Source of the DNA: Bdellovibrionota bacterium
GTDB taxonomy: Bacteria > Bdellovibrionota_G > JALEGL01 > DATDPG01
Assembly: GCA_035292885.1 (NCBI GenBank)
Contig: DATDPG010000019.1
Coordinates: 1-59,569 of the forward strand
DNA length: 59,569 nt
Reading direction: 5' to 3'
Shown here: positions 50,000-58,953 of the stretch, in pieces
How the letters are laid out: each line of letters starts with the position of its first letter
How positions within the stretch are numbered: position 1 is the stretch's first letter
Notes under the pieces: model-generated
Seen by the model: only the letters and a program-made list of their open reading frames with translations
Databases searched by the model: none
Told to the model about the DNA's origin: nothing
Program-made: the position numbers and the translations under genes

Positions 50000-51457
50000 T
50001 CATTCAAGCCGGTATTCAATCCACTCGCTGACGCTTTTCTTCCCGTTGCGGTCTTTTTCCTGTCCGTCCCATACGGCGATGGCGAGCTCGCCGCTCTTGT
50101 CGAACTTCGCGTCCGCGCTATCTTTGCTCGCGAGGGAGCGGCGGAAGACCACATGCCATTTCCCATCCGAAAATGTACCCAACCCCTCGATATTTTGCGC
50201 CTCGACCGGCTGAGTGGTGAGCGTGCTGAAGCCGGTGGCGTTCAAGTCTTCGACCGGATATCTGCGGGTCGGCCACGAAAAACGGTTCCCGGCGGCGACC
50301 GCCGTGAGATAAGGCGTTGTCGACTCTAACCCCATAAAGGCCATATCGGTCGCCATGTACGGATAGACATCCGCGAGCTTCCTCTGCACGCCGAGTTCCC
50401 TCTGCCAGGCCGCTTTCCAGTGCCAGATATTCACCGGGAGATTTCGCTCGCCCATCGTGTAGATGGGTTCGCCCTTCGTCGGTTCCAAGGGGAACTGGAT
50501 CGCGCTTCCGTCTGAAAACGCGTCGACGCTCATGAAGTTGTCGTCTTTTCGCGCGCTCGCCCATTCCAAGAGGAAAGCGATTCCTCTTCCGTTCGCAATG
50601 GCCCGAACGGCGGCATTGTCGGCGAAATGTCCGGACGCCCAAAGAGGTTTGAGCGGGACTCGGGTGACGGGAGCTTTATCCCAAATGGGATCCGGATAGG
50701 CCATCGCGACGCGATCGACCCGGGTCACCTTGACCTGTCGCTCGGCAATCGGTGTGATCGGCACCGGCTTGGAGAGGGAAAGAATGAAAGCGGAGAGCGC
50801 CCAATTTTCTTTCGGCTTGAGCACGTCCGTGAAAGAGGGCATTGGCGTGCCGTTGATGCCGGTAATAATCGTGCGATAAACATCTTCCAGGCGCTGGCCC
50901 CCCTTCAAATGGCCGCGCGTAAAGTCCGCGGCGCGGATGGGCAGGCCGAAATCGTCCTTTAGGTTTTGAGATTGCGTCCCGAGGCCTTTGCCGTCTGCGC
51001 CGTGGCAGACCCGACACTGCATTCGCTCATATACCGCCCGACCTTGAGAGATCAGTTGTTTCGTCACCGCCGGAGCCGTTCCGAGGTTCATCACTTCCGG
51101 CGCCGCCTGATTTTTGAACTCGGGTGAGAATCCTTTGATGTACGTGATGATGGCCTGTTTCTCTTCAGGGGTCAGCCGGGGCCAAGCCGGCATGGATGAG
51201 CCCGGAAGGCCGTTCGTGACTGTCCGATCCAGGTCCTGATCCGTCGGAAGGGATCCGCTCGACGTCGAGCGGAATTTATAGACGCCTCGCGTGAAATCGC
51301 GCGGTTTTGGGAAAAGCAGATACGCGGCGTCCCCAAGGCCGTCGCCTTTTGCACCGTGGCACACGCCGCATTTCACCTCGTAAAGCGTCTTTCCGTCCGC
51401 GGCGGAAGCGAGGGCAGGGACGAACAGCAACAGCGAGATAAGCAAAGTCGCTTTCAT
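50000..51457 (-). CDS. Di-haem cytochrome c fused to EB_dh-type haem-b domain (gamma subunit)
   Basis: 485 residues. Signal LLISLLLFVPALASA, then two cytochrome c domains with CGVCHGAKGDG (about residue 30) and CRVCHGADGKG (about 148), each followed by a distal Met region (SSMPAWPRL; TPMPSF). Residues ~245-485 are the haem-b domain of ethylbenzene-dehydrogenase type gamma subunits, with GIAFLLEWAS, DAFSDGSAIQFP and the conserved C-terminal KDRNGKKSVSEW. In complex-II-type DMSO-reductase family enzymes this subunit carries electrons between the Fe-S beta subunit and periplasmic partners; fusion to cytochrome c gives it its own exit path. AAAGGAG precedes ATG 51457, which overlaps the chaperone stop. 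It is last in the operon. Confidence 0.92.
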   Translation of the reverse strand: MKATLLISLLLFVPALASAADGKTLYEVKCGVCHGAKGDGLGDAAYLLFPKPRDFTRGVYKFRSTSSGSLPTDQDLDRTVTNGLPGSSMPAWPRLTPEEKQAIITYIKGFSPEFKNQAAPEVMNLGTAPAVTKQLISQGRAVYERMQCRVCHGADGKGLGTQSQNLKDDFGLPIRAADFTRGHLKGGQRLEDVYRTIITGINGTPMPSFTDVLKPKENWALSAFILSLSKPVPITPIAERQVKVTRVDRVAMAYPDPIWDKAPVTRVPLKPLWASGHFADNAAVRAIANGRGIAFLLEWASARKDDNFMSVDAFSDGSAIQFPLEPTKGEPIYTMGERNLPVNIWHWKAAWQRELGVQRKLADVYPYMATDMAFMGLESTTPYLTAVAAGNRFSWPTRRYPVEDLNATGFSTLTTQPVEAQNIEGLGTFSDGKWHVVFRRSLASKDSADAKFDKSGELAIAVWDGQEKDRNGKKSVSEWIEYRLE

Positions 51458-52116
51458 GATGGATCTCCTTTAAGGCCAAAAAAGCGCAGTTCGTTTTCAA
51501 CCAGGGCGCGAGTGAACGCCGCGAGCGGAGGCATCAACTTGTTGGGTTCCCGGCGATCCGTGGCATCGAGGTAGGCGAACAGAAATGGAACGACATGCTC
51601 CTGGAGAAATCGGCTCCGGGCCTCACGCGAGACGGATGCTCGCTCCGGGTCGTGCTGTTGGAGCGCGACGGCCTCTTTGAACGCAAGGAAGGAAAGAAAT
51701 TCGAGTTCCAGGCCGATGTGATCCACCCGTTCCTTTTCGTTCGGCTCGACGGCGAACGCCCGGTAAAAGCCGGCCACATCCGCCATGATCTGTTCTTCGC
51801 CGAAGAGCTGGCGGTTTCCGTAGCGGGCGCTGTACGGCGGGAAGGTATCGGCCATCACGTATTTCGAAAGATGCTCGAAAAGTTCTTCGAACGCCGACTC
51901 TTTGTCCGTCTGTTGCGCTACTTCTTGCCCCCACTGTTTCGCGGACTGCATCAATTCCGGGTCTGCCAATTGCTCCGCCAGCCCAGTTAAATCAGCGTCG
52001 GCATCTTTCGTCGCGAGATAGCGAAAGAAATCAGCATCGACCTTTGTGGAAAAAAAGGCCGCCGGAAGCTGATAAAGCCTCGCGAGGGCGAACGCGCGGT
52101 CAGATGGAGTTGGCAT
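51454..52116 (-). CDS. TorD/DmsD-family chaperone for the molybdoenzyme
   Basis: 220 residues from ATG 52116, which overlaps the beta-subunit 3' end by 17 bp; its own stop overlaps the gamma subunit start. All-helical with the family landmarks: LARLYQLPAAFFSTKV, ADTFPPYSARYGNRQLFGEEQIMADVAGFYRAFAV, ERVDHIGLELEFLSFLAFKEAVA and FLQEHVVPFLFAYLDAT. E-P-N-x-x-x-R-x-D-H is the TorD signature region. Such proteins bind the Tat signal of the catalytic subunit and hold it until cofactor insertion. The client is clearly the alpha subunit of this operon. No enzyme activity is expected. Confidence 0.92.
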   Translation of the reverse strand: MPTPSDRAFALARLYQLPAAFFSTKVDADFFRYLATKDADADLTGLAEQLADPELMQSAKQWGQEVAQQTDKESAFEELFEHLSKYVMADTFPPYSARYGNRQLFGEEQIMADVAGFYRAFAVEPNEKERVDHIGLELEFLSFLAFKEAVALQQHDPERASVSREARSRFLQEHVVPFLFAYLDATDRREPNKLMPPLAAFTRALVENELRFFGLKGDPS

Positions 52117-53341
52117 GTTTCGCCGGCCTTTCATAGACTTCTTCTTCGACACGGACGTCCACCACGTCGCGACCCTTTTTGTCGTATCCGATGATCCGGT
52201 CGTTATAGACCTCGAGTTTTTTCCCTCGGATCGTCGTTTCGAACACCTTTTTCCCCTGTTCGATCTTGTATTTGAAAATAATCGGCTGGGCGGCGCGGAA
52301 AAGCTGCATGACCGCCAGCGTTTCGCGGGACGGCCATGTGTATTCGTCGATGGCGTGATCGACGCCCGGCCCGAACATCTGAGTGAGATACGGCCGGGGA
52401 ACCCATCGCGGGGGGATGTAATAGCCGTTGGGTTCGGTCCCGAACTGCGGATAAAGCGGAAGGGCGATCTTCGCGACCTTCACCATGTAATAGAGCGGGT
52501 TGTTTCGATCTTCTTTCCACTCGCCGTTCTTGGGATCGATCTTAACGAGCCCTTGCAGACGAATTTTTCCCACGCACGCGCACATGCAGCGGGTCTCGAT
52601 CGGTGTGCCCGGGAACATCGGTTCGTGACCGGAAATCCGCGGATAGCAGCCGATGCATTTTTCGGATGTGCGCGTGGCTGGCCGATACATCGATTTTTTG
52701 TAAGGACACGCTTCCACGCACTTTCGGTATCCGCGGCATCTCTCCTGGTCGATGAGGACAATTCCATCTTCCTTTCTTTTATAAAGCGCCTTTCGAGGGC
52801 AGGCGGCCAGGCAAGCCGGATAGCTGCAATGATTGCAGATGCGCTGAAGGTAAAAGAACCAGGTCTTATGGACCGGCAGCTCGGTTCCTTCGGTATGCGC
52901 GATGGTTTTCATCAAGCGCGCCCCGCGGGGACTGTCTTCGTGAAGATTGGGGTTCGCCCATTCATCGTCGTCCGGGAGATAGCCGAGCACTCTCTGTTGA
53001 CCGAACTCCGGCACCAGCCCCGCGGCCTCGAAAACCGTCTTCCCTTCAAAGGTCCCGCCGTTCCAGACTTGCCCTTCCGGATTGGCCTTTTCCATCATGG
53101 AAAGAATCTTGACGTCCCAGTGGCGGGGATATCCGCCGTACGGTTTGGTTTCGACGTTGTTCCACCACATGTATTCCTGTCCTTTGGAGAACGTCCAGGT
53201 CGATTTGCAGGACATCGTGCAGGTTTGGCACCCGATGCACCGGTTGATGTTGAACACGAACGCGAACTGTTCATCGGGATAAGCCGCGTCGTAGGGGTAC
53301 TCCATTTCCCGTTTGATCTGCCAGTTGAAGACTTTCGGCAT
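52100..53341 (-). CDS. nxrB: Iron-sulfur beta subunit, nitrite oxidoreductase/NarH-like
   Basis: 413 residues. Four ferredoxin-type clusters: CIGCQTCTMSCKSTW (Cys 35, 38, 41, 45), CNHCSYPACLAACPRKA, CRGYRKCVEACPYKK (Tyr at one position, the form binding a 3Fe-4S cluster as in NarH), and CIGCYPRISG with ETRCMCACVGKIR. Phrases such as FNINRCIGCQTCTMSCKSTWTFSKGQEYMWWNNVETKPYGG and YPQFGTEPNGYYIPPRW are, from memory, very close to NxrB of Nitrospira. The protein has no signal; it should be exported with the Tat-tagged alpha subunit. It wires the molybdenum site to the haem-b subunit. ATG 53341 has AAGGAGGAG seven bases upstream. Perchlorate/selenate reductase beta subunits are the alternative family members. 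Confidence 0.93.
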   Translation of the reverse strand: MPKVFNWQIKREMEYPYDAAYPDEQFAFVFNINRCIGCQTCTMSCKSTWTFSKGQEYMWWNNVETKPYGGYPRHWDVKILSMMEKANPEGQVWNGGTFEGKTVFEAAGLVPEFGQQRVLGYLPDDDEWANPNLHEDSPRGARLMKTIAHTEGTELPVHKTWFFYLQRICNHCSYPACLAACPRKALYKRKEDGIVLIDQERCRGYRKCVEACPYKKSMYRPATRTSEKCIGCYPRISGHEPMFPGTPIETRCMCACVGKIRLQGLVKIDPKNGEWKEDRNNPLYYMVKVAKIALPLYPQFGTEPNGYYIPPRWVPRPYLTQMFGPGVDHAIDEYTWPSRETLAVMQLFRAAQPIIFKYKIEQGKKVFETTIRGKKLEVYNDRIIGYDKKGRDVVDVRVEEEVYERPAKHANSI

Positions 53342-53350
53342 ATCTCCTCC

Positions 53351-53602
53351 TTATTCCCGCTTCGGCGTGCTCTCGTGGATCCAACGCAGGATCGTTTCGC
53401 GGCCGTGCGCTTTGTAGAGTTGATGGGTGATGAGATAGAACGGCGACTCGAACAGTTTTAGAATTTCTTCTTTCGGGTGCCCGAAGCGGGCGTACTCCTC
53501 AATGATCGTCCGGGCCATCTCCTCGTTGGCCGCCGGATCGTCCGGCATGGGCATTCCGACCAGTACGTTCGGATCGTCGAACTCGAATTCATCCTTGGGC
53601 AT
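53351..53602 (-). CDS. Small acidic protein of unknown function between alpha and beta subunits
   Basis: 83 residues from ATG 53602, with AAGGGGGG upstream; it starts 2 bp after the alpha-subunit stop and ends 9 bp before the beta-subunit start, so it is part of the operon. It opens with PKDEFEFDDPNVLVGMPMPDDPAANEEMARTIIEEYARFGHPKEEILKLFESPFY, an acidic segment then helices with conserved-looking Pro, Gly and aromatic residues, and ends in a basic helix. No cysteines, no signal, no membrane span. Codon use and ribosome site look like a real gene. It is not a subunit known in NarGHI or NxrABC. Possible roles: small subunit, assembly or maturation factor. Confidence 0.8.
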   Translation of the reverse strand: MPKDEFEFDDPNVLVGMPMPDDPAANEEMARTIIEEYARFGHPKEEILKLFESPFYLITHQLYKAHGRETILRWIHESTPKRE

Positions 53603-53604
53603 GA

Positions 53605-56600
53605 TCAACCCCCCTTCGTCAGATCGCCGGTGAGGTACGCCTGCATGAGTTCGTTCTCCTCGCCCGGATTCATTCCTTCACTCCCCGGTTTCCAGGCGCC
53701 CATTCCGCCCAGGCCTCCCGGTTCCGCCTTCGTGATCTTCACCAGCGTTTCTTTCGGGACCGTATTGACGGCGTGGTTGTCCGCCTCGAAGCCGAAGACG
53801 AACTTCATTTTCGCCTTCGACTTATGGAACAGAGAATCGAGCTGGTGCATCGGAGGGAGCCAGCCGCGCGTGATCGACTGGTGCGAGCCGTATCTAAAGC
53901 TCGCCTGATAGCCGGTGTTGCCCGAGAGCGCCCTTCCGTCCGGCCGAGTCTCGTGCGCCTTAACCGTTTTTTCTGTGGCGATGAAGGCGCCGTGCTTCAT
54001 CATAATGATGTGGTAGGGGTAGGCCGGATTGAATTTCACCCGCAGCATGAGGCGAGCCACGCGATAACGGGGATCGTTCGGCTTCCATCCGGTGTACGGC
54101 CGGTCGGCGGGATTCGCGTCGACGTAAACATAATCGCCCTCGTTCAGTTTGAGATCCTTGGCCGCCTTTGGATTCATGTTGATTTCGTATTCCCCGACGC
54201 CGGGGGTTCGTTTGTCCATTCGATAGGGATCCCCGAACTGATTGCTCCAGATCGCGTGCCAATCGGTGACCGCCCAGCTGGAATGTGTCGTGTGCCGTGA
54301 TTTCGGTGTGAGAGCGAAGAACCGATACCCCTTTTCCCAGAGGGGGTTCTTCGTCGCCTTCGCTTCCTTCCATGAAAGTTTTACGTTCCGGACTTGCCGT
54401 TCATCCGGGCCCATGGCCGTGCGGGGGATGCCATAGTCGTCCGGCCGGATCCAGGGGTTGGTGGAGACGATGACGTTGGGAAGATACGGCGTCGCTTCCG
54501 GTCCCTCGCGGTGGACGATGAAGTTCTCGCCGTACTCCATGACCTCCGGTTCGTCGTTGTAAGCCTGTAACCGTCCGGTCGGCGTGAAAAACGGAAGGCT
54601 GTCGTGGATCTGCTCGTAAAACGGGATTCGAGGATACGTTCGGAAGAGCATGAGCGCGGCCCCCGGTTCGCCGTATTTGCCCTTCATAATATCTGTGAGC
54701 TGATAACCCTGTGTGGTAGTCGAGCTGTCGAGGAGCCGCTGGATATAAACATCCGAGCTTCCCTCGAGAATGAATTTCCAATACTCGGCGCAGCGGGGGT
54801 CGTGAATCAGCTCGCCCAGCTTCTTCGCAACATCGGCCAGGATTCGCGCGTCGTCGTGCGTGTTGTAAACCGGCTTAATTCCGCCTTTCCAGATCTGGAG
54901 GAACGGGTTTGAACAGGACGCCGTGATTTCGCGGACGTCCGTTTCGATCCAGGAGTTCGCGGCCAGCGCGATGTCCGAATACTCGACGGAGGCCGTCATT
55001 TCGATCTCGTTCGCAACGATCATCTCGACGTTCGGATCCACGTTGAAGATCATTTCGTAGACCCATTTCGCGTTGTTGATGAGGTTCACGTTCGTAAACC
55101 ACATGACTTTGGTGGGCGTCGGCATATGCGACTTGCCCGTAAAGTTGCGCGGCCCCTTCTTCGTTTTGGCGATCAGCGGCTTGTCGCCGTAATTCCAGTA
55201 CGCCGGTTCCTCTCCGCGGGAAATTTCGCGGACATGGATCTCCTTCGGTTTGGCGTTCGGATCGACGTTGCAGTGGAACGGATCCTCCGCGACCCACGAT
55301 CCGAAACCGTATCCCACGCCTTCCGCTCCCTGAAAGAGAGCGGCTTTGTAATTCCCGGCCCAGGTGTAGCTTCCGGCGCCCGGCTTTCCGATGTTTCCCG
55401 TCAGAATGAGGGGCAAATACGCCGCGCGGTTTACCTCCGTCGCGTGGAACCAATGGTTGATCCCCTCGCCGACATGGATCGCCGCCGGTGAGATCGTGGC
55501 GAAGTCGTCGGCCAGCTTAACAATCAAATCCTTCGGGGCATGCGTGATCTCCTGCACCGTATCGAGGTCGTAATCCTGTAAGTGACGGTGGTACATCGAA
55601 AGAAGCGTCATCACTTTCACACTTTTGCCGCCGGTCAGTTTTACCGTCCATTCGCCTTCGAGAGCGGGATCGATCCCTTTCGACGCCAGGGTTTTGCCGA
55701 CGTCGTCCCGGGTAACGGCTTTGAACGACTTCGAGGCTTCGTCGTAGACAACGTAGTCGGGGAGTTTCGTCCGATTTTCGTCGGTGAGCCCATGGATCTT
55801 ATACGACGGGCCGTTCTTTAGGTCCGCCGGTTTATATCCGGGGAACAGTTCTGCGGCCGAAAGCCGCCGCGAAGTATCGGTTCGGACCAGAAGCGGAAAA
55901 TCGGTGAACTGTTTGACGAAGGCAGCATTGTATTGCTTCCGATCGATCATCAGTTTCGTCACGCCGAGCAATAGGGCTGCGTCGGTCTGCGGACGGACCG
56001 GAATCCAATAGTCCGCTTTCGTTGCGGGAGGGCTGTATTCCGGCGCGATGCAGACGATCTTGGCGCCTCTTTCCATCGTTTCGATGAAGAAATGGGAGTC
56101 GGGCCTTTTATTTTCGACCAGATTCTTGCCCAACTGGACGTGTAATTTGGTGTGCCGGAGATCGTTGAAATCGCAATCGGCCGCCTGAAGACCGTGAACG
56201 AACGGATGGCCGGGAGCCTGGTCGCCGTGCCATGTATAATTCGACCATGCTCGCGCGCCTTTGGCTTTGTCCGGTTCGACGCCGCGGACATGGGCGTCGA
56301 GAAGTCCCAGCATGTTGGCAAAGCGGTACATTCCATACTTGCCGATGACGCCGAGAAGTCCCATTCCACCGCGTAACTTGAATGTCCTTGTTCCGGCTCC
56401 CTCCAGATACGACATCATGTCGGGGTGATACCCCTGATCCAAGAGCCGTTTTTTCCCCTCTTCGCCGCTGTAACGTTTTGCGATCGCGATCATTCCCTTC
56501 GCGATATACGTGTTGGCTTCGTCCCATCCGATCGGGTCGAACGTGTCGCTGCCCCGGGAATCGAAATGATATTTCTTTTTGAGTTCCGGAGTCAGGTCGG

Positions 56601-57042
56601 GAAATCCGTCGTCCGCCCATTGTTTCCATCCCTTGCGGATGATCGGATGCCGCAGGCGATGCGGTCCGTATACACGCCGCTGGAACGTGAAGCCGTTCAA
56701 GCAGCCGCGCGGATTCCACGCATACGTCGCCTTGTTTCCGTAAAGGTCTTTGACTTTGTGATTGTCGTAATTCTGCTCGCTCCGCAGAAAAATTCCGTTT
56801 CGGACGAAGCCGCGCAGCCGGCATTCATGCGTGCAATTCGGTGAGCAGACCCAGGTGAACGAATCGTCGTATCGGTATTGGTCGAGGTAGACCTTTTCCC
56901 AACCGCGGTTCGGGTATCCGGCCAGCGGGTTGCCGACCTCGGTGGTCAACGGTTTCAGTGAGCCGAACGCGAATGCTCGGGGAGCGGAAAGAGCCACGCC
57001 TGCGGCGGAGCTGACCTTAATAAAGTTGCGTCGGTTCATCAT
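53605..57042 (-). CDS. nxrA: Molybdopterin alpha subunit, nitrite oxidoreductase/nitrate reductase-like (DMSO reductase family type II)
   Basis: 1145 residues, matching the length of Nitrospira NxrA. The N-terminus is a Tat signal (NRRNFIKVSSAAGVALSAP), so the enzyme is periplasmic. The 4Fe-4S motif is C66-x3-C70-x3-C74 with C114; the first ligand is Cys rather than the His of NarG. By alignment with NarG Asp222 the molybdenum ligand is probably Asp274 in YTWHGDQAPGHP. Later MGD-binding boxes include KLHVQLGKNLVENKRPDSHF and NIGKPGAGSYTWAGNYK. Type II enzymes of this kind oxidise nitrite or reduce nitrate, selenate or (per)chlorate; the direction cannot be read here. ATG 57042 overlaps the ferredoxin stop. 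Confidence 0.92.
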   Translation of the reverse strand: MMNRRNFIKVSSAAGVALSAPRAFAFGSLKPLTTEVGNPLAGYPNRGWEKVYLDQYRYDDSFTWVCSPNCTHECRLRGFVRNGIFLRSEQNYDNHKVKDLYGNKATYAWNPRGCLNGFTFQRRVYGPHRLRHPIIRKGWKQWADDGFPDLTPELKKKYHFDSRGSDTFDPIGWDEANTYIAKGMIAIAKRYSGEEGKKRLLDQGYHPDMMSYLEGAGTRTFKLRGGMGLLGVIGKYGMYRFANMLGLLDAHVRGVEPDKAKGARAWSNYTWHGDQAPGHPFVHGLQAADCDFNDLRHTKLHVQLGKNLVENKRPDSHFFIETMERGAKIVCIAPEYSPPATKADYWIPVRPQTDAALLLGVTKLMIDRKQYNAAFVKQFTDFPLLVRTDTSRRLSAAELFPGYKPADLKNGPSYKIHGLTDENRTKLPDYVVYDEASKSFKAVTRDDVGKTLASKGIDPALEGEWTVKLTGGKSVKVMTLLSMYHRHLQDYDLDTVQEITHAPKDLIVKLADDFATISPAAIHVGEGINHWFHATEVNRAAYLPLILTGNIGKPGAGSYTWAGNYKAALFQGAEGVGYGFGSWVAEDPFHCNVDPNAKPKEIHVREISRGEEPAYWNYGDKPLIAKTKKGPRNFTGKSHMPTPTKVMWFTNVNLINNAKWVYEMIFNVDPNVEMIVANEIEMTASVEYSDIALAANSWIETDVREITASCSNPFLQIWKGGIKPVYNTHDDARILADVAKKLGELIHDPRCAEYWKFILEGSSDVYIQRLLDSSTTTQGYQLTDIMKGKYGEPGAALMLFRTYPRIPFYEQIHDSLPFFTPTGRLQAYNDEPEVMEYGENFIVHREGPEATPYLPNVIVSTNPWIRPDDYGIPRTAMGPDERQVRNVKLSWKEAKATKNPLWEKGYRFFALTPKSRHTTHSSWAVTDWHAIWSNQFGDPYRMDKRTPGVGEYEINMNPKAAKDLKLNEGDYVYVDANPADRPYTGWKPNDPRYRVARLMLRVKFNPAYPYHIIMMKHGAFIATEKTVKAHETRPDGRALSGNTGYQASFRYGSHQSITRGWLPPMHQLDSLFHKSKAKMKFVFGFEADNHAVNTVPKETLVKITKAEPGGLGGMGAWKPGSEGMNPGEENELMQAYLTGDLTKGG

Positions 57043-57572
57043 GTCTCTCTCCTTGGTTCAATGGAAATCGCTGCCGGTTTGGAAACGGTTGAACAGGCCG
57101 GAATACAAAAACCGCATCCGTCGCACGACTCGTTGATGTGCGGCCGCCCGTCGATCAGGTCGATTGCCTTCTGCGGGCAGGCCGATGCACACATTCGGCA
57201 TTCGGATCCCGTCTCGGACGCGCAGTACGAGGAATGAAAAACGGCCGTGCCGATCGGAAGTTTTACCGTTGGAAGCGTGAGAGCGTTTCGATCGCATGCG
57301 GCCGCACAAGGATAACCTTCACAAAAGAGACAGCCCGATCGGTCGAAGCGGAGAACGGGAAGGGGCGGATCTCCCTCCAGATGAATGAGATGTTTCGGAC
57401 AGCCCTCGACGCATCCGCCGCAGGCATCGCAAGACGAGAAGAGCCGTTCAAAGTTTTCGGTGCCCGGGGGAAAGATGGAACCGCGAGCTTTGTGAACGAC
57501 CTTAGCCCGGACCGAAGAAGCAAAACGTCCGGTGAGGAAACGCCGGCGTTCGAGAGAAAAAGGGGACGCCAT
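57039..57572 (-). CDS. NapF-like polyferredoxin with twin-arginine start
   Basis: 177 residues from ATG 57572; the frame is open upstream but that part covers the preceding gene, and ATG 57572 overlaps its stop (ATGA). The N-terminus is SPFSLERRRFLTGRF, a twin-Arg motif without a strong hydrophobic core, as in NapF. Four cysteine clusters follow: CDACGGCVEGCP, CLFCEGYPCAAACD, CRMCASACP and CDGCGFCIPACS. NapF in E. coli helps mature the molybdenum enzyme in the cytoplasm. Its stop overlaps the alpha-subunit start by 4 bp, tight translational coupling that supports the same maturation role here. Confidence 0.92.
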   Translation of the reverse strand: MASPFSLERRRFLTGRFASSVRAKVVHKARGSIFPPGTENFERLFSSCDACGGCVEGCPKHLIHLEGDPPLPVLRFDRSGCLFCEGYPCAAACDRNALTLPTVKLPIGTAVFHSSYCASETGSECRMCASACPQKAIDLIDGRPHINESCDGCGFCIPACSTVSKPAAISIEPRRET

Positions 57573-58465
57573 CAATGAATCTCTTGGGCCAAATATCCTT
57601 CCACGCAGCGCTCGCACGCCCCGTTCTCCCGCCTCCATTCGGGCGAATCGGTTCGGACTCGCGCGGCCACACGATCCAGGTCGGCCGGATCCGCCCAGGC
57701 CGACGTGGGAAATCCGCAAAGAGGGCAATGGGGCGTGCCGGCTTCATCTTCCGCGAAAGAGAGGAGCCACTCTTGTGTGGGATGAGCCTCGCGCCGAATC
57801 GTTTCGGCCAGAGTGCTCAATGTCTCCGCCGTTCGTCGCGGATAACAATAGGAAAGCCGGTGTTCAAACTCTTGCCGAGCCGATCCGGTGTCGATCCCGA
57901 GATTCCGAAGGCGGGCTTCGACGGACATGGACCAAAGAAGTGAAAACCGCTCTTGAGCCGCTTTTTGTCCCGCGGGTGTTGCGGAGCGCCACGCTCGGGA
58001 CGGTTGATAGGCGAATGCCGGATCGAGCATGTCTGCGATGTGCATCCATTCCGCGTTTAGGAAGTAATCGAAATAAGGTTGAAGAAAGCGCTGGGGTCGG
58101 ACGGAAAGCCGGACAAAGAGCTGATCGGGATTCCCCTGGGGCACGATTAAATCCGCTCCCTCGTTCTTGGGAGCGTGAGTCACCGCCAGTTCGATTCGCT
58201 TCAGCTTCGCAAGAAGGGGATAGTGAAGCAGACTTTTTTCGAGCTGCTCTTGGAAACCGAGCGTTCGAAAGTAACGGAGTTCCAACTCCTCAAAGGAAGC
58301 GGCTCGTTGGGAATGGGGGAGTTCGTAAATGGGGTGCGATTCTTTGGCGTATTGCCGGACGATCTCCATATCGTCCTTGCGCTCGCGACGGTTGACTTCG
58401 AGCTGCACGGTTTGCCGCAACAGTTCGGGATCGAGATGAAAGAGAGAGCGCGCCGAGGAAGACAT
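57572..58465 (-). CDS. Unknown protein with C-terminal zinc ribbon, coupled to the molybdoenzyme operon
   Basis: 297 residues from ATG 58465, 2 bp after the stop of the cyclic-nucleotide-domain gene; its stop overlaps the NapF-like start. No signal or membrane span. The first ~200 residues are helical and charged (HLDPELLRQTVQLEVNRRERKDDMEIVRQYAKES; SVRPQRFLQPYFDYFLNAEWMHIADMLDP). The end carries a zinc-ribbon-like HCPLCGFPTSAW and then CERCVEGYLAQEI. FdhE, the maturation protein of formate dehydrogenases, also pairs a helical body with C-terminal Cys-x-x-Cys ribbons, so an FdhE-like role (checking or inserting the cofactor) is my best guess, not established. Confidence 0.78.
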   Translation of the reverse strand: MSSSARSLFHLDPELLRQTVQLEVNRRERKDDMEIVRQYAKESHPIYELPHSQRAASFEELELRYFRTLGFQEQLEKSLLHYPLLAKLKRIELAVTHAPKNEGADLIVPQGNPDQLFVRLSVRPQRFLQPYFDYFLNAEWMHIADMLDPAFAYQPSRAWRSATPAGQKAAQERFSLLWSMSVEARLRNLGIDTGSARQEFEHRLSYCYPRRTAETLSTLAETIRREAHPTQEWLLSFAEDEAGTPHCPLCGFPTSAWADPADLDRVAARVRTDSPEWRRENGACERCVEGYLAQEIH

Positions 58466-58467
58466 AG

Positions 58468-58917
58468 CTAAACGGATTTGCGGGCGCTCTTCCTCTTGAT
58501 TTCGTTTCCCCCTTTTAGGAACTTCAGTTCGTGCACTAAAAGAGGATCGGAGTGTTGAATCCAATGGAGAAGCGTCGACTTTTCAGTAAAGGAAACCAGA
58601 ACGTCATTCACGACGAGGGCCGTAAGCGGGTAGGGCTGATTCGCCACCAACGAAGCGAGGCCCAACATGGCGCCAGGTCCGGCTTTCAGCGGCGCGTGTA
58701 GGTCCTTCTCCGTGATTCGGAGTTCGACGGCGCCCTCGTGAATCACAAAGAGGCCGTACGGAAGGTGCCCTCGGTAAAAAAGAACTTGTCCCGCTTTATA
58801 CCGAGAGGGGGGAATTCGCCTTTTCCAGTCGGTCAGAGATTTCGGACCGATGGTCAGAGCCAAGGGGATGGAAGCCACGAAGTCTCCGTTGGGCGATACA
58901 GCCAGCATCATCCCCAT
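58468..58917 (-). CDS. Stand-alone cyclic-nucleotide-binding domain protein
   Basis: 149 residues. One cNMP-binding beta-roll: YKAGQVLFYRGHLPYGLFVIHEGAVELRI, then PGAMLGLASLVANQPYPLTALVVNDVLVSF. This is the Crp/PKA fold, but there is no C-terminal helix-turn-helix, only a basic tail (LKGGNEIKRKSARKS), so it is not a classic Crp regulator. The Arg and Glu that bind cAMP phosphate are not evident. Start uncertain: TTG 58938, ATG 58917 or 58911; no strong ribosome site. It sits 2 bp upstream of the zinc-ribbon gene in the operon. It may sense a ligand and act through protein contacts. Confidence 0.82.
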   Translation of the reverse strand: MGMMLAVSPNGDFVASIPLALTIGPKSLTDWKRRIPPSRYKAGQVLFYRGHLPYGLFVIHEGAVELRITEKDLHAPLKAGPGAMLGLASLVANQPYPLTALVVNDVLVSFTEKSTLLHWIQHSDPLLVHELKFLKGGNEIKRKSARKSV

Positions 58918-58953
58918 TGTTAAGATCCCACGGTTCAAAAAACATGAGCTGAA

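Follow-up and report, generated by a model that had tools for sequence, protein, structure and literature searches.

Virtually all biological nitrate comes from nitrite oxidoreductase (NXR; PMC8387239), and genes lodged between those of its A and B subunits have been described in two organisms. In Nitrobacter, the gene found between nxrA and nxrB is nxrX (nwi_0775), whose product has been described as a prolyl isomerase assisting NXR folding (PMC4786786). In Kuenenia, the slot between nxrA (1700) and nxrB (1703) holds two uncharacterised genes, kustd1701 and kustd1702, which are transcribed with the cluster but whose products were undetected in a proteome rich in A, B, C and T (PMC6423088). 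In NXR preparations and structures from Kuenenia, the only components are A, B and C, joined in tubules by the tubule subunit T (PMC8387239). Unnamed conserved proteins of unknown function have been mentioned for the nxr regions of Nitrospina (PMC3578206).

The window examined here (i.e. the whole analysed stretch of 59,569 nucleotides from a Bdellovibrionota bacterium) contains an nxr operon in which a single small gene, termed S, occupies this position. The genes, in operon order, are as follows.

57039-57572, minus strand: NapF-like multi-4Fe-4S protein, whose reading frame overlaps the nxrA start by 4 nt
53605-57042, minus strand: nxrA, catalytic molybdopterin subunit with a Tat signal (MMNRRNFIKVSSA)
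53351-53602, minus strand: S, small protein of 83 amino acids (ATG at 53602, TAA at 53351-53353), comprising a flexible, conserved segment (residues 1-21, DP..VG...P) and a predicted four-helix core (residues 22-78)
52100-53341, minus strand: nxrB, iron-sulfur subunit of the type II DMSO reductase family
51454-52152, minus strand: chaperone of the TorD/NarJ kind (Pfam Nitrate_red_del; NCBIfam TIGR03482 below cut-off)
50000-51457, minus strand: nxrC, with two cytochrome c domains, an ethylbenzene-dehydrogenase-type haem b domain and a Sec-like signal

Among solved structures, NxrA was closest to Kuenenia NXR-A (7b04_B, 1757 bits, residues 2-1143), on which basis the enzyme is classed as an NXR-type type II DMSO reductase and not a classical NarG. 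By sequence, the operon product is a Tat-exported NXR of the anammox/Nitrospina type, a class assignment that does not fix whether the host runs the enzyme as nitrite oxidation or nitrate reduction. No signal peptide was seen at the N-terminus of NxrB.

Several features of the enzyme and its surroundings were recorded alongside. The FS0 cluster of Kuenenia NXR has three Cys ligands and one Asp (PMC8387239). The N-terminal FS0 motif of the window NxrA, CSPNCTHEC, has a Cys at the position of the Kuenenia ligand Asp71. This Cys is common to the window NxrA, L001, L048, L049 and L050, which form one supported clade, and every other NxrA with an identified FS0 motif has Asp at the position. The FS0 of the window NxrA would accordingly be all-cysteine, possibly with a shift in redox potential. 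Upstream, a 330-aa protein (window 57572-58564, minus strand) matched no Pfam or NCBIfam family above cut-off and gave a structure model of poor quality; a CPLC...C..C motif lies at its end, the L001 relative carries HELTH, and relatives adjoin nxr in 13 clade-1 loci, S-less loci included. Just upstream of the nxr operon were also seen a radical SAM/SPASM protein and a cyclic-nucleotide-binding-type regulator (L108:2955-4073, minus strand; window 58468-58938, minus strand). The radical SAM/SPASM protein belongs to TIGR04053 (over cut-off) and is AhbD-like (haem b synthase).

The gene for S proved to be laid out exactly as the original prediction had described, with 2 nt separating it from the end of nxrA (53605) and 9 nt from the start of nxrB (53341). 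The ribosome site proposed for it is present as a purine-rich, ribosome-binding-like run, acgaaggggggttgatcATG, within the last nxrA codons 5' of S, and nxrB is preceded by a similar sequence, GGAGGAG. A Tectomicrobia protein (L001) encoded in the same gene slot exhibited 49% identity to the window S. Substitutions between four pairs of homologues fell mostly at third codon positions, with dN/dS values of ~0.04 (L054/L055), 0.17 (L001/L049), 0.13 (L057/L105) and 0.16 (L106/L107), indicating that S is under purifying selection. An alignment of 15 members contained eight invariant columns. On the strength of the 49%-identical homologue in the same slot, the low dN/dS and these invariant columns, S is read as a true gene and not a chance ORF; the suggestion that the protein was conserved was thus borne out. 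Stoichiometric expression with the enzyme had also been proposed from the spacing, but closely spaced genes are no proof that their products are incorporated stoichiometrically.

The same alignment revealed a core motif, EE(F/Y)...G....(I/L)L..F..P.Y.........G, and a conserved N-terminal segment, DP..(V)G...P. The predicted lack of cofactor ligands held, in that there is no cysteine in the window S and neither a conserved cysteine nor any other conserved cofactor ligand was found in the family. Net charge is acidic in 14 of the 15 members. No signal peptide or hydrophobic N-terminus was found in S, nor a haem-binding motif with an export signal of the NXR-C or NXR-T kind. AlphaFold2 with two sequences predicted a four-helix core at residues 22-78 (block pLDDT mostly 86-94), with residues 1-21 at low confidence. 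Searches with S returned no significant structural match in PDB or BFVD, no credible match or existing model in Pfam or NCBIfam, no PpiC-type rotamase domain and no match to plasmid sequences. MraZ matches to two family members (best E 0.001) were set aside, being weak and absent in other members. Comparison by hhalign with 13 chaperones encoded in these operons gave a probability of 0.3%, which ruled out a degenerate TorD/NarJ domain. The idea of S as a RiPP precursor for the nearby radical SAM gene was judged unlikely, since that gene in the window is of the TIGR04053 family, other nxr loci have radical SAM genes of mixed kinds in their vicinity, and the core of S is globular and conserved. 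S was rated as an accessory protein specific to a molybdoenzyme and belonging to a new family; no description of such a family was found in a literature search that drew largely on papers outside subscription.

The distribution of S was examined using a profile built from the 15 aligned sequences and run genome-wide over 385 genomes. NxrA relatives were present in 35 genomes and fell into two groups: clade-1 NxrA, 57-71% identical to that of the window, was carried by 22 genomes, and 13 had only sister-clade NxrA (36-44%). S was detected in 18 of the 22 clade-1 genomes, whilst the profile matched none of the 13 sister-clade-only genomes and none of the 350 genomes lacking NXR (0/363 together). 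The co-occurrence (Fisher P about 2e-27) is a guide only, since the genomes lack independence and the profile included sequences from 14 of the 18 S genomes; the finds new to the profile were G315 and three genomes of family f10. The window S scored E 4.5e-32 genome-wide and was itself among the 15 profile-building sequences. Before alignment, a single-sequence search of 96 genomes had found G051, G033 and, weakly, G009, all of them NXR genomes. In a further group of 68 genomes, S was found in five, four of them new, and all four had nxrA directly upstream and nxrB downstream. Homologues therefore exist and track the molybdoenzyme operon, as had been anticipated, and are not scattered apart from molybdoenzyme genes.

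Four clade-1 genomes (G190, G090, G180 and G060) lacked S. The NxrA sequences of G190 and G090 are sisters in the tree, so a single loss would explain both; in G180 and G060 the contig carrying nxr breaks off inside the operon or close to it. The presence of S in the deep-branching lineage L039 and in the rest of clade 1 suggests that it is probably ancestral to clade-1 NXR. As a separate observation, five genomes possess both clade-1 and clade-2 NXR, i.e. G154 (L036/L050), G315 (L013/L041), G090 (L045/L063), G060 (L038/L064) and G366 (L039/L043), and parts of the two adjoin on one contig in L045.

Gene position was conserved in most but not all cases. The order nxrA-S-nxrB was observed in 18 of 23 S-bearing genomes from many families, whereas two genomes of one family (L047 and L103) have S after the chaperone gene (i.e. 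A-B-chaperone-S), and in three genomes of family f10, where nxrA and nxrB adjoin, the S domain is fused to a parvulin encoded elsewhere. The original expectation that homologues would always lie between the alpha and beta genes was consequently too strict. In G177 (L056:5660-6927), S and nxrB lie ~1.3 kb apart, with no long plus-strand ORF between them; spacing is tight elsewhere.

The fusion proteins (G009, G157 and G296) are PpiC-type parvulin prolyl isomerases of ~190-210 residues with an N-terminal domain matching Pfam Rotamase (E 3e-23) and an S-like domain at the C-terminus. Their last 60 residues align to S residues 23-82 with genome-wide profile E values of 1e-11 to 3e-13 and an hhalign probability of 97.6% over 60 columns, making homology to S solid at the sequence level. 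They differ from S in possessing the rotamase domain and in lacking both the DP..VG segment and linkage to nxr, and no signal peptide was found in them. The occurrence of this fusion in one family suggests that the fused S domain is the substrate-recognition part of a folding catalyst. The parvulin-S gene (L100, L101 and L102) adjoins a run of paralogous ORFs that share the motif DNGDGT..D......W...D.......W..A..Y.......F.G...WR.P.

Comparison with the described systems showed likenesses of several kinds. The claim that S had no known Nxr counterpart was too strong, as both Nitrobacter nxrX (PMC4786786) and the two Kuenenia genes (PMC6423088) sit in its slot. NxrX, compared by description only, differs in being described as a peptidyl-prolyl isomerase whereas S lacks an isomerase domain, and the parallel would be one of position and possibly of function, not one of shown homology. 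The Kuenenia slot, likened by position only, contains two genes instead of one. NXR-T (kustd1705) is likewise an accessory protein from an nxr cluster, but it is a monohaem cytochrome c with a predicted signal sequence and a tubule-driving four-helix bundle (PMC8387239), whereas S has neither haem motif nor signal. The TorD/NarJ chaperones (Nitrate_red_del) resemble S in being small, cytoplasmic and encoded in the same operon; they have no detectable homology to S, which is about one-third of their length. S may work alongside a chaperone of this type.

Tat substrates acquire their fold and their cofactors in the cytoplasm and are exported afterwards. The Tat signal of NxrA implies that NxrA, together with the signal-less NxrB, would be expected to be folded and cofactor-loaded in that compartment. 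We infer that S serves the periplasmic NXR of the anammox/Nitrospina type as a dedicated maturation (assembly) factor in the cytoplasm and assign this reading a probability of about 0.62; S would most likely be a helper for building NXR and not a working part of it. The reading fits best because S is small, lacks a signal and cofactors and is encoded between both subunits, because its TorD-like and NapF-like neighbours are maturation-like, and because in one lineage it is fused to a folding catalyst. Also in its favour are the occurrence of S in 18/22 clade-1 genomes and 0/363 others, the predominant A-S-B gene order, the acidic character of S, the parallel with nxrX, which fills the equivalent slot and whose product is described as a prolyl isomerase (PMC4786786), and, by analogy, the restriction of Kuenenia NXR to A, B, C and T (PMC8387239). 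In the cytoplasm, S may bind NxrA, NxrB or both while they are still nascent or incompletely folded. It would work alongside the TorD-like chaperone, and perhaps also a parvulin prolyl isomerase, as the subunits fold, receive clusters and cofactors or dock with each other, and would be released before or at Tat export. Against this, the parvulin fusion is confined to a single family in which it is unlinked to nxr, no fold match informs the mechanism, and S, though lacking a signal, could pass through Tat by hitch-hiking on NxrA-NxrB in the manner of NxrB. The sister lineages G190 and G090 have clade-1 NXR without S, indicating that S is not indispensable everywhere.

Hitch-hiking through Tat would be the export route if the mature NXR contained S as a small structural subunit, e.g. 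as a brace between A and B or an aid to higher-order assembly like Kuenenia NXR-T. The location of the gene between A and B, its tight and sometimes overlapping coupling to nxrB and the strong co-inheritance of S with clade-1 NXR would all suit a subunit. Such a role is nevertheless rather unlikely, given that some lineages have the same NXR without S and that the f10 domain sits on a parvulin without a signal peptide. The lack of an export signal in S argues weakly against a periplasmic subunit. Small proteins are easily missed by proteomics. The Kuenenia crystals of NXR-ABC and the tubules hold only A, B, C and T (PMC8387239), and the absence of kustd1701/1702 from both the proteome (PMC6423088) and the solved NXR would make a strong case against a structural subunit if either gene is a homologue of S, the proteome result bearing on S only in that event. 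The original prediction had offered a structural subunit or an assembly factor; the assembly factor fared better of the two and the subunit was weakly disfavoured.

The parvulin-S fusion in three genomes and the prolyl isomerase identity ascribed to the product of nxrX, whose gene holds the equivalent slot (PMC4786786), also accord with a narrower role, in which S is an adaptor that brings substrates to a separate parvulin and NXR depends on prolyl isomerisation to fold; the f10 fusion would then be the joined form and nxrX a parallel solution. This role is unlikely, as no neighbour of S was noted as a parvulin gene in the clade-1 loci examined and the fusion is confined to one family. A regulator or signalling protein for NXR expression and not for the complex (e.g. 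nitrite- or redox-responsive) is very improbable: some weak Foldseek matches to helix-turn-helix proteins, none significant, lean that way, but there was no weighty match to a DNA-binding family, S is predominantly acidic and its domain is fused to a folding enzyme.

Returning to S as a maturation factor, a bolder and only speculative extension is that S is an unrecognised, ancestral, clade-specific NXR component that couples folding to prolyl isomerisation, existing mostly as a stand-alone client-binding domain, joined once to a parvulin, with nxrX as an independent solution. If this were true, production of active anammox/Nitrospina-type NXR in a heterologous host would need S. The S family is a testable candidate for a missing NXR maturation factor and a possible genomic marker that separates clade-1 NXR from the sister clade, in which S was not found.
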